This document shows positions 28,254 to 30,831 of a DNA stretch of 30,881 nucleotides, piece after piece. The stretch covers positions 1-30,881 of the IMG/VR virus record IMGVR_UViG_3300024520_000336. One strand, given 5' to 3'. This DNA comes from a virus. Below the pieces are notes generated by a model. It was not told the origin of the DNA. It saw nothing but the letters and a program-made list of their open reading frames with translations, and made no database searches. The position numbers and the translations under genes are program-made. The number at the start of each line of letters is the position of its first letter. Position 1 is the stretch's first letter.

Positions 28254-29096
28254 ATGCCAAACAGAATTTTACGAGATTGGACGGACTCGTTCGCCGTCCA
28301 CGAACTAAACGCCAGCGAGGAACGGTTCTTTCTGCGACTACTAATGAAAGCAGACGATTACGGACGCTTCCACGGGTCGCCCAAGCTACTCAAAGCGGCA
28401 TTGTTTCCACTTCACTCAATCGACGACAAAGACGTCACCAAGTGGCGCGACAAGTGCAGCAAAGAGGGGTTGATTGATGTGTATGAAGACGAGCGCGGGC
28501 GAGTGTTTCTCGAGGTTAAAAACTTTAATCAGCGCACCCGAGCGACGACTTCAAAGTACCCGGCGCGGTCAAGTGACCGTCAAGTGACCGTCAAACGACC
28601 GTCACATGACCGCCTAGACGGAGACGGAGACGGAGACGTAGACGGAGGCGAGTGCGGAGACGGAACGCGCCAAGGCGCGAGCCACTCGCTCGCAGAGATT
28701 CCAACCATTGACGAGGTCAAGGCTTATTCGGTCACGATCGGCTTGGTCGAGTGGAAGGCGGTCGATTGGTATCAAAAGCAAGAGGCACTCGGTTGGATGA
28801 TGAACAACCAACCCATTCGCAAATGGCGACCCCTATTAACCCGCTTACGGACGTTTTGGGAGGCAGATGGCAAACCACTCAAGCCACCGGGAAAAACGTC
28901 GTCAGCACCCGTTAACGGCGCAGCGATGCCGCCTTGGGCGAGGATCAAGACCATCGAGGGAAGCATCGACAAGCATCGAGGCAACCGGGAGTCGGTTTAC
29001 TTTACCGGGTTAGCAAGAGACAAAGCAGATTTCAAAGCGTTGAAAATCAAATTGAGAGAGTTGAAAGCAGAGCAAGAGAAAGAGGCGATAGCGTGA
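28254..29096 (+). CDS. Replisome-organiser-like protein with iterons in its gene
   Basis: A 280-residue protein. Residues 1-100 read as a winged helix module typical of phage replication-initiation proteins (MPNRILRDWTDSFAVHELNA, then ERFFLRLLMKADDYGRFHG, VTKWRDKCSKEGLIDVYEDE). A low-complexity linker (about 105-140) is encoded by two repeat arrays, 28568-28611 and 28615-28662. The C-terminal half (VDWYQKQEALGWMMNNQPIRKWRPLLTRLRTFW) resembles DnaD/replication C-terminal modules that contact the host helicase loader. This is the layout of lambda O and of Gram-positive replisome organisers, whose origins lie inside the gene. Confidence 0.78.
   Translation: MPNRILRDWTDSFAVHELNASEERFFLRLLMKADDYGRFHGSPKLLKAALFPLHSIDDKDVTKWRDKCSKEGLIDVYEDERGRVFLEVKNFNQRTRATTSKYPARSSDRQVTVKRPSHDRLDGDGDGDVDGGECGDGTRQGASHSLAEIPTIDEVKAYSVTIGLVEWKAVDWYQKQEALGWMMNNQPIRKWRPLLTRLRTFWEADGKPLKPPGKTSSAPVNGAAMPPWARIKTIEGSIDKHRGNRESVYFTGLARDKADFKALKIKLRELKAEQEKEAIA
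28568..28611 (+). repeat. Four 11-base direct repeats (iteron-like)
   Basis: Four contiguous units: GTCAAGTGACC, GTCAAGTGACC, GTCAAACGACC and GTCACATGACC. Three of them contain the small palindrome GTCA-N2-TGAC. They encode the linker of the replication protein, and an origin inside this gene is likely by analogy with lambda O. Confidence 0.8.
28615..28662 (+). repeat. Hexanucleotide repeat tract
   Basis: A run of GAGACG-type hexamers (TAGACG, GAGACG three times, TAGACG, GAGGCG, AGTGCG, GAGACG) directly follows the iterons. It encodes an Asp/Gly-rich linker (DGDGDGDVDGGECGDG). It may simply be a length-variable tract produced by slippage. Confidence 0.75.
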
Positions 29097-29392
29097 CCAA
29101 CGAACAACCAACCAAGACGGTGAAATCATGCTGCTTCACATTAGCCGGGTTTTTTCACGACGGCGCGGCGGCAGACATCAATGAGTTTCTCGGGGGCGAG
29201 GCAATCGGGCGAGAGTTAGTCGTCGCGATACAAAACGAAGAGGGAACGAGGCGGGCAGAATTAGTTTTCACCAACACGGACGCCAAGTTTGAGAGATTAC
29301 CAGAGGTGGAAGGCCAAGGTTGGGGTTGTGTCCATTATGGGATCGCGAAAAAACTAACAAGCAGCGAACTCCCGACGAGCATCCAACAATGA
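29093..29392 (+). CDS. Hypothetical protein
   Basis: A 99-residue protein with a GTG start overlapping the previous stop (GTGA). It reads TNEQPTKTVKSCCFTLAGFFHDGAAADINEFLGG and then VVAIQNEEGTRRAELVFTN, suggesting a small mixed alpha/beta domain. It ends in a polar tail. I do not recognise a family. Its place between the replication protein and an HTH protein suggests an early regulatory role. It overlaps the next gene by 4 bases. Confidence 0.7.
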   Translation: MTNEQPTKTVKSCCFTLAGFFHDGAAADINEFLGGEAIGRELVVAIQNEEGTRRAELVFTNTDAKFERLPEVEGQGWGCVHYGIAKKLTSSELPTSIQQ

Positions 29393-29799
29393 ACAACGAC
29401 GACGACCACGTCTCTTTCGTATTCGGCGCGCCTCATCCGCACGTTGAGTTCGATCTCGATGCGATCGAGGCCAAGCCGGGCGAGCCAATCGTCTTGGACA
29501 TGGGAGAGCAGACAGTCGACCGCCTAGTCGTCGCCCTCGATGCCGTGCTTGATTGGTTAGTGCCGCACCGCGCCAAGCCGCAAACGGTAATGGTTCGCGC
29601 TTGCGTGCTTGCGTTGTTCATCCGGCCCGATGCGCTCGGGTGCAAGAATCAGCGCGAACTATCGCGCAAGCTCGGCGTCTCTCAATGGGCAATCAACCGT
29701 CAAGTGATTGAGTTCCGTGATAAGTTTAATTGGATCGCACCACGGATGCACGGCACACTCGCACGCAAGCGAATGAAGAAGAAAAGAAATGAACGATGA
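29389..29799 (+). CDS. Helix-turn-helix protein
   Basis: A 136-residue protein. The C-terminal third carries a likely helix-turn-helix (KNQRELSRKLGVSQWAINRQVIEF) and a basic end (LARKRMKKKRNER). The N-terminal half is acidic and Val/Asp-rich (VEFDLDAIEAKPGEPIVLD). It resembles phage regulators that act on DNA, but a specific family is not recognised. ATG 29389 overlaps the preceding stop. Its 3' end overlaps the starts of both the methyltransferase (29789) and the second frame (29796). Confidence 0.75.
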   Translation: MNNDDDHVSFVFGAPHPHVEFDLDAIEAKPGEPIVLDMGEQTVDRLVVALDAVLDWLVPHRAKPQTVMVRACVLALFIRPDALGCKNQRELSRKLGVSQWAINRQVIEFRDKFNWIAPRMHGTLARKRMKKKRNER

Positions 29800-30625
29800 C
29801 CGAGCAACTCACCTTGACCTCTTTAGTGGCATCGGCGGATTTGCAATCGCCGCCGAGCGATGCGGATGGAAGACAGTCGCGTTCTGCGAGAGAGAAAAGT
29901 TCTGCCAAAGAGTCTTGCAAAAGCATTGGCCAAGCGTGCCAATCATTGACGACATCCACGACCTCGACGGCAGAGAGTACAGAGGCGTCTCTCTCATTAC
30001 CGGGGGATTTCCATGCCAACCATTTAGTCAAGCCGGGCAGCAACGAGGCGCGGATGATGAGCGTGCGATCTGGCCGGAAATGTTGCGCGTTATTAGGGAA
30101 GCAAGACCGCGCTTCGTCGTGGGTGAGAACGTTGCTGGCATCATCAACATGGCACTCGACGACGTGCTTTCTTCGTTGGAGGCCGAAAGCTACTCCGTTG
30201 GGGCGGTCGTTGTTCCAGCTTGTGCCGTCGATGCCAAACACCGACGAGACCGAGTTTGGATACTCGGAGCCGATACTTTGGCCAAGCCCACGATCCAAAA
30301 AGATAACTTCAGAAAATCCAGACTCGTGGGAGCGTCGGAGGCAAGAAAAGAAAAGACCGGGGAGAACGTTGGGGATGGTTGCAAGAATGTGGCCTACACC
30401 GGCAGCGAGGGACTACAAAGGCGTGAGCGGTGCGGGGAGACAAGAAAGAAAGAATCACCCGGCAGACACTCTACCGAATGCAGTAAATGGTCAATTGAAC
30501 CCGACGTGGGTCGAGTGGCTCATGGGATACCCGAGCGGTCACACCGATTGCGCGGACTCGGCAACGCGATCGTGCCGCACGTCGCGGAGCAAGTGCTAAC
30601 GGCATTGATTGAAAGCGAAAGATGA
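29789..30625 (+). CDS. dcm: DNA (cytosine-5) methyltransferase
   Basis: A 278-residue C5-methyltransferase with its motifs in order: motif I LDLFSGIGGFAIAAERCGW (10-27), motif IV GGFPCQPFSQAG (Cys76 is the catalytic nucleophile), motif VI VGENV (111-115), motif VIII RRDRVWILG (152-160) and motif X RLRGLGNAIVPHVAEQVL near the C terminus. It transfers a methyl group from S-adenosylmethionine to cytosine, probably protecting phage DNA from host restriction. The target-recognition region (about 165-225) is short. No matching restriction gene is seen. ATG 29789 has no Shine-Dalgarno sequence. Nearly the whole gene is covered by another open frame. Confidence 0.95.
   Translation: MNDDRATHLDLFSGIGGFAIAAERCGWKTVAFCEREKFCQRVLQKHWPSVPIIDDIHDLDGREYRGVSLITGGFPCQPFSQAGQQRGADDERAIWPEMLRVIREARPRFVVGENVAGIINMALDDVLSSLEAESYSVGAVVVPACAVDAKHRRDRVWILGADTLAKPTIQKDNFRKSRLVGASEARKEKTGENVGDGCKNVAYTGSEGLQRRERCGETRKKESPGRHSTECSKWSIEPDVGRVAHGIPERSHRLRGLGNAIVPHVAEQVLTALIESER
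29796..30599 (+). CDS. Overlapping second-frame protein candidate
   Basis: A 267-codon frame in +1 relative to the methyltransferase, without stop codons. Its ATG overlaps the upstream HTH gene's TGA as ATGA, the coupling used by most genes here. The translation has features of a real protein: SLSLPGDFHANHLVKPGSNE, SWVRTLLASSTWHSTTCFLRW, PLGRSLFQLVPSMPNTDETEFG, WPTPAARDYKG (residues 199-209) and NGQLNPTWVEWLMGYPSG (231-248). I recall similar segments in proteins reported beside phage C5-methyltransferases; I cannot tell how far those conserved blocks simply mirror constraint on the methyltransferase frame. If real, two proteins are read from one stretch of DNA. Confidence 0.5.
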   Translation: MTEQLTLTSLVASADLQSPPSDADGRQSRSAREKSSAKESCKSIGQACQSLTTSTTSTAESTEASLSLPGDFHANHLVKPGSNEARMMSVRSGRKCCALLGKQDRASSWVRTLLASSTWHSTTCFLRWRPKATPLGRSLFQLVPSMPNTDETEFGYSEPILWPSPRSKKITSENPDSWERRRQEKKRPGRTLGMVARMWPTPAARDYKGVSGAGRQERKNHPADTLPNAVNGQLNPTWVEWLMGYPSGHTDCADSATRSCRTSRSKC

Positions 30626-30831
30626 TTGGACTTATGGAACAACACGGAGGCGAGTCGGAAGAAGAAAAGAAATTCAAGAAATATATTCTCGAGAAGTGGC
30701 CGCCCATGACTCCCGAGGATATGGTAAACCTAATAAAAGAAGAGCGGATTCAAATCCAAGCGCATTTGACGGTTGTCGATGGTTGTCTCAAGCAACTGAC
30801 CAAGGCGTTGATGACAGATGATGGCGAATAA
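30622..30831 (+). CDS. Small hypothetical protein
   Basis: A 69-residue helical protein, coupled to the methyltransferase by an ATGA overlap (alternative start ATG 30634). It reads as an acidic N terminus followed by amphipathic helices (EEKKFKKYILEKWPPMTPEDMVNLIKEERIQIQAHL) and an acidic end (TKALMTDDGE). No family recognised. Its last 11 bases overlap the short frame that crosses the ends of the window. Confidence 0.65.
   Translation: MIGLMEQHGGESEEEKKFKKYILEKWPPMTPEDMVNLIKEERIQIQAHLTVVDGCLKQLTKALMTDDGE

Follow-up and report, generated by a model that had tools for sequence, protein, structure and literature searches.

The window, the whole stretch of DNA analyzed here, is an entire IMG/VR virus record of 30,881 bases. 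Two overlapping reading frames can be read directly from its sequence: frame 0 runs from the ATG at 29789 to the TGA at 30625 and encodes 278 aa, and the +1 frame runs stop-free across it for 267 codons, from the ATG at 29796 to the TGA at 30599. A preliminary description of this DNA had pointed to a 278-residue and a 267-codon frame in this arrangement, and both sets of coordinates are borne out. So is the ATGA coupling it noted, as the ATG at 29796 overlaps the TGA at 29797–29799 that ends the upstream HTH ORF (the HTH label is that of the preliminary description). ATGA stop-start overlaps join the genes upstream of the methyltransferase (window 28934–29799) at 29389–29392 and 29796–29799, and a 69-aa ORF (30622–30831) begins on the methyltransferase stop, at ATGA 30622–30625. 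An Rfam search around the locus gives no match. The locus contains the following features:

29789..30625, plus strand: C5-cytosine methyltransferase catalytic (alpha) subunit, frame 0, 278 aa, motifs I–VIII and X (PF00145, phrog_363, TIGR00675, AF2 model compared with M.HhaI)
29796..30599, plus strand: nested ORF, frame +1, 267 aa, putative specificity (beta) subunit with modules like those of a target-recognition domain (TRD) and motif IX (phrog_1008, viral relatives, stop depletion, substitution pattern)
29789..29799, plus strand: twin start ATGAACGATGA, frame-0 ATG 29789 and +1 ATG 29796, within the end of the HTH gene (sequence; recurrence in window-like loci)
29816..29842, plus strand: motif I, DLFSGIGGF, frame 0 (translation, alignment A2)
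30011..30019, plus strand: motif IV, catalytic PCQ, frame 0 (translation; invariant in alignment A2)
30051..30560, plus strand: conserved core of the +1 protein (about residues 86–255), over frame-0 motifs V–VIII and the TRD region (per-column conservation, sister-pair substitution classes)
30125..30133, plus strand: motif VI, ENV, frame 0 (translation)
30236..30259, plus strand: motif VIII, KHRRDRVW, frame 0 (translation, alignment A2)
30275..30535, plus strand: frame-0 segment 163–249, predicted disordered and weakly conserved, the site of the TRD and motif IX in canonical enzymes (AF2 pLDDT, substitutions at frame-0 codon position 1)
30390..30422, plus strand: +1 block WPTPAARDYKG, TRD-like module (conservation, module count)
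30495..30551, plus strand: +1 block LNPTWVEWLMGYPSGHTDC, putative motif IX (near-invariant in alignment A1; resembles M.HhaI LHPRECARVMGYPDSY and RB16 LTPRECFRLQGFPDSF)
30560..30577, plus strand: motif X, GNAIVP, frame 0 (translation; AF2 residues 261–278 with pLDDT about 90)

Profile searches identify frame 0 as a C5-cytosine methyltransferase: residues 8–177 match PF00145 (E 5e-41), phrog_363 is matched at E 1.2e-75, and TIGR00675 scores above its cut-off. Motifs I–VIII and X are read in the translation. In the AF2 model the catalytic domain and the C-terminal helices with motif X are predicted with confidence, and its closest structural counterpart is M.HhaI (Z about 22, rmsd about 3, 193 residues aligned). 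Between these parts, however, segment 163–249 is disordered, with pLDDT about 50 and no secondary structure to about residue 239. The preliminary description had credited the methyltransferase with all key motifs; that claim does not hold, since frame 0 has no recognizable TRD or motif IX, and both appear in the +1 frame. The canonical single-chain layout, in which the TRD and motif IX share the catalytic frame, is thus absent from frame 0, whereas it is present in the control enzymes RB16 and IPP64, which carry motifs IX and X in frame 0 and have many +1 stops.

A profile search with the 267-residue +1 translation, a step proposed in the preliminary description, finds phrog_1008 (E 1e-30) and a large set of relatives: 98 annotated phage records (E 1e-3), 593 stretches retrieved from viral contigs, and 338 from bacterial genomes and MAGs spanning Bacillota, Bacteroidota, Proteobacteria, Acidobacteria, Planctomycetes and others. 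In the viral and bacterial loci read, these relatives likewise sit in the +1 frame of a methyltransferase; the bacterial genome scan yielded no stand-alone homolog, and 80 of 80 loci read overlap a methyltransferase frame. The homologs mostly contain one to three TRD-like modules of the form WPTPxARDxKG (WxTP) upstream of a conserved C-terminal block, LNPTWVEWLMGYPSGHTD, that resembles canonical motif IX (M.HhaI LHPRECARVMGYPDSY, RB16 LTPRECFRLQGFPDSF). Its core, LNPTWVEWLMGYP, is near-invariant in alignment A1 and is assigned to motif IX by resemblance, not by a profile E-value. Pfam, NCBIfam and PADLOC give no match to the +1 protein, nor does its profile match any PDB sequence. AF2 models it too poorly for use (mean pLDDT 58.7), which is unsurprising for half a domain whose alignment is shallow, and a VIA-align fold search returned a single row, to a designed protein at Z 2.5, which was judged meaningless.

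Several of these loci show individual peculiarities. Four close relatives (L006, L008, L025 and L030) have their first +1 WxTP modules in common and differ in the last ones, as if recognition modules had been exchanged. In three others (L013, L024 and L156) frame 0 is broken by a stop or frame change and the +1 ORF stays open across its conserved core; in L156 it ends early, inside motif IX. In two Clostridia/Oscillospiraceae MAGs (L137 and L144) the segments carrying motifs IX and X switch frame together part-way, so that the C-terminal +1 segment lies in a different frame from the N-terminal part, through either a natural frame switch or an assembly indel. An uncultured Roseovarius MAG chromosome (OX638333.1) contains the methyltransferase locus at five places (L127–L131) with identical match coordinates and scores, which suggests a repeated prophage or an assembly effect.

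Two isolated phages, linked to the +1 family by profile matches, carry the two halves as nearly separate genes. In Arthrobacter phage KBurrousTX, gp79 contains motifs I–VIII and ends after VIII, and gp80 contains, in one frame, LPTP modules, LNPAFVEWMMG and LKALGNGVCPQQ / LKALGNGVCPQQAETAI. Mycobacterium phage Peaches gp77 and gp76 have a similar layout, and both gp80 and gp76 continue from the +1-like part into motif X without a change of frame. A MAG locus (L138) has a catalytic ORF that stops just after motif VIII and a nested ORF, with its own Shine-Dalgarno (SD) start, that continues through the TRD modules, IX and X. Peaches gp76 (L176:1985–2569) is annotated as hypothetical and KBurrousTX gp80 (L175:2077–3405) as ‘DNA methyltransferase’; from their motif content, both look like the TRD/IX/X half of a split enzyme whose partner gene lies just upstream.

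Taken with the IX- and TRD-like parts of the +1 protein, the gap in frame 0 and the single-chain controls, these non-nested relatives point to the +1 product as the probable specificity subunit of a split methyltransferase. It is improbable that it is instead an independent accessory protein, such as a regulator or anti-restriction factor, with no role as a subunit. The N-terminal half of the +1 protein has no known relative and the domain and defense-system libraries are silent, as such a protein might have it, but its C-terminal half holds the motif IX look-alike and the TRD-like modules, its profile matches gp80 and gp76, where motif X follows in-frame, and frame 0 has no TRD of its own. 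The suggestion of an anti-restriction factor in the preliminary description is therefore retained only indirectly, insofar as phage methylation can protect against restriction, and otherwise disfavored.

Internal starts were analyzed in 86 loci whose +1 frame is closed by a stop in the 30 codons before residue 68. Downstream of the last such stop, a start codon with an SD match of at least 5 nt is found in 56 of the 86, compared with 8.5 expected under synonymous shuffling, and a match of at least 6 nt in 31 loci, compared with 2.1 expected. These starts cluster at aligned residues 61 and 65; one example, in L136, is AAAGGAGGACTTTTATG (longer reading TGACAAAGGAGGACTTTTATG). Window-like loci have no internal SD start and instead have twin start codons, in which the frame-0 start is followed by a +1 ATG 4 nt (RTGAATG) or 7 nt later (as in the window, ATGAACGATGA). 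Residues 8–60 of the +1 frame are stop-free in 24 of 25 twin-start loci versus 24 of 183 others (Fisher p 4e-17, kinship ignored). The window +1 start has no clear SD site. The two window starts fall within the final few bases of the HTH gene; ribosomes terminating there could reinitiate in either frame. The window may also hold a later +1 start, at ATG 30054 or 30057 after GAGGCG.

These start signals also bear on programmed frameshifting, by which a single chain would be read through motifs I–VIII in frame 0, take its TRD and motif IX from the +1 frame, and possibly go back for motif X. The canonical order I–VIII, TRD, IX, X is indeed restored only by two frame switches, but these would have to be in opposite directions, and the relatives with +1 stop codons followed by an SD site and start codon, together with the separate genes of KBurrousTX and Peaches, speak for two polypeptides. 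Moreover, constraint on the +1 frame begins at about residue 88, over motifs V–VIII, a stretch that a frameshifted chain would still read in frame 0. We consider this mechanism highly improbable.

Three lines of evidence from related loci support the +1 frame as a protein-coding gene in its own right. First, +1 stops are strongly depleted relative to synonymous shuffles that keep the methyltransferase sequence and codon usage. In the window alone, 0.28% of shuffles leave the +1 frame stop-free (0 stops seen, mean 3.8). Among loci L001–L085 there are 40 +1 stops compared with 424 expected, and the +2 control is near expectation (903 versus 997). Because these loci were picked mostly by their +1 sequence, the analysis was rerun on loci found by the conserved frame-0 peptides LFSGIGGF and GYPCQPF; a frame-0 scan of viral contigs gave 5 loci with a single-protein query and was redone with an alignment. 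The 59 new frame-0-picked loci contain 10 +1 stops versus 339 expected (+2 control, 774 versus 807). Second, individual +1 residues are better conserved than the frame-0 residues they overlap: W 0.99 versus M 0.53 at residue 121, L 0.99 versus S 0.59 at residue 128, and P.89, T.93, P.92 versus A.78, D.51, T.38 at residues 202–204.

Third, the substitution pattern changes along the locus. A change at frame-0 codon position 3 alters the second base of a +1 codon, and a change at position 1 alters a +1 wobble base, so that changes affecting only one of the proteins can be counted separately. Close kin of the window itself were not found, and the counts come from 31 independent sister pairs of other related loci; ratios are used, as sites synonymous in both frames are few and make absolute dN/dS values rough. 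Changes altering frame 0 only versus +1 only number 46 versus 324 at residues 8–55, where most loci have no +1 gene, and 36 versus 160 at residues 60–87. The counts then draw together, at 44 versus 56 for residues 88–105 and 140 versus 200 for residues 106–160, and reverse in the TRD region, residues 161–233, with 520 versus 260. They are 38 versus 50 at residues 234–256 and return to 30 versus 120 at residues 259–275. In the TRD region changes thus fall on the +1 wobble base, and the +1 frame is the better kept of the two. By these ratios, the two ends of the gene are constrained in frame 0 only, and both frames are constrained over motifs V–VIII and around motif IX. Amino-acid constraint on the first ~55 +1 residues is slight in window-like loci, on small counts.

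Judged from these comparisons, the +1 frame is conserved, and purifying selection acts on it at the protein level; stops, substitutions and starts alike identify it as an overlapping second gene. That the frame is no gene at all, its openness and conserved blocks mirroring only methyltransferase constraint and codon bias, would fit its lack of a Pfam match and the only moderate improbability of so long an ORF in one genome (0.28% of shuffles), but this is next to impossible given that +1 stops are depleted 10- to 30-fold under shuffling and +2 stops are not, that +1 residues exceed frame 0 in conservation and form the constrained frame at 161–233, that relatives have internal SD starts, and that the canonical RB16 and IPP64 enzymes have many +1 stops. 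A by-product of frame-0 constraint, the alternative named in the preliminary description, was rejected on stop depletion, conservation and substitution pattern. The comparisons it had called for, of +1 stops in homologous loci and of constraint in both frames, favor its idea of overprinting with a methylation partner, a protein under selection with initiation signals of its own in relatives and a TRD-like and IX part; it had not drawn the link to split C5 methyltransferases such as M.EcoHK31I and M.AquI.

The locus very likely encodes a split C5-cytosine methyltransferase like M.EcoHK31I, its specificity subunit nested in the catalytic gene, and both halves would form the active enzyme. Frame 0 would supply the catalytic subunit, with the SAM site, the PCQ loop, motifs I–VIII, a disordered linker and motif X. 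The C-terminal half of the +1 polypeptide would be the target-recognition domain with motif IX, and its N-terminal part, overprinted on motifs V–VIII, probably serves in folding or in docking on the catalytic subunit. In the window, ribosomes would reach the +1 frame through the twin starts (ATGAACGATGA), which lie 7 nt apart where the upstream gene ends; in most relatives they would use an internal SD site and a +1 start at about codon 61–65. The two polypeptides would then assemble into an enzyme that methylates phage DNA. Orphan methyltransferases of phages usually shield phage DNA from host restriction, and it is plausible that methylation by this enzyme protects in the same way.

Nesting of this kind has a precedent. 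M.EcoHK31I (YGGCCR), with alpha and beta polypeptides, was reportedly described by Lee, Kam and Shaw (NAR 1995, 23:103), and its beta gene is said to be nested in alpha and read in a different frame. M.AquI and M.EcoHK31I are the characterized two-polypeptide C5 methyltransferases; in M.EcoHK31I, motifs I–VIII and X belong to the large subunit and motif IX to the small one, and the TRD is assigned by prediction to the large subunit instead of the small (PMC3404938). For M.AquI, the same source places motifs I–VIII in the catalytic subunit and the variable region and motif IX in the second (PMC3404938). Compared by described motif layout, the window resembles M.EcoHK31I in having two polypeptides, with I–VIII and X in frame 0 and IX in +1. 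It may differ in the place of the TRD, predicted for the large subunit of M.EcoHK31I, as residues 161–233 here evolve under +1 constraint and lie in the disordered part of the frame-0 model, and it differs in being a phage orphan with no nuclease seen. A search for the M.EcoHK31I sequence through plasmids and E. coli genomes found only prophage and plasmid relatives. The layout of M.AquI (CYCGRG) is that of KBurrousTX gp79/gp80, Peaches gp77/gp76 and L138, in which the second subunit carries both IX and X. The window departs from M.AquI in keeping motif X with the catalytic frame and in nesting its second gene instead of placing it after the first.

The same nested +1 arrangement, with a profile match, is present in phage records: K1G ORF30 (‘Mte8-like’), K1ind2 ORF28 and Paenibacillus phage Shelly gp56 (‘g55 internal gene’). 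These inner ORFs carry either no functional annotation or a second ‘DNA methyltransferase’ label, and the records state no mechanism. Given M.EcoHK31I and these ORFs, the nested arrangement itself is of a known kind. Within the literature covered, our search on nested C5 methyltransferases returned only papers mentioning M.EcoHK31I, with none stating how common nesting is or placing a TRD in the nested frame, and the breadth of the arrangement and the presence of the TRD in the nested frame appear little recognized. Both phrog_1008 (+1) and phrog_363 (frame 0) are labeled only ‘DNA methyltransferase’; by these data they would be two halves of one enzyme.

More broadly, a whole class of C5 methyltransferases from phages and prophages, spanning phyla, probably consists of half-enzymes, with a specificity subunit overprinted on the catalytic gene. 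Recognition modules in the +1 frame would be gained, lost and exchanged, with the catalytic frame tolerating them as a disordered linker, and translation would be secured by two solutions, twin starts or an internal SD site. Automated annotation mostly retains a single frame, so that many cytosine methyltransferases of phages may have been cloned or modeled without their specificity subunit. If true, this reading would account for the missing TRD in frame 0 and give phrog_1008 a function. It would also supply many natural split methyltransferases, a useful resource given that targeted methylation has already drawn on M.EcoHK31I and split M.HhaI (PMC3439449), and it would offer an unusually old and widespread overlapping gene pair in which to study the evolution of double coding.
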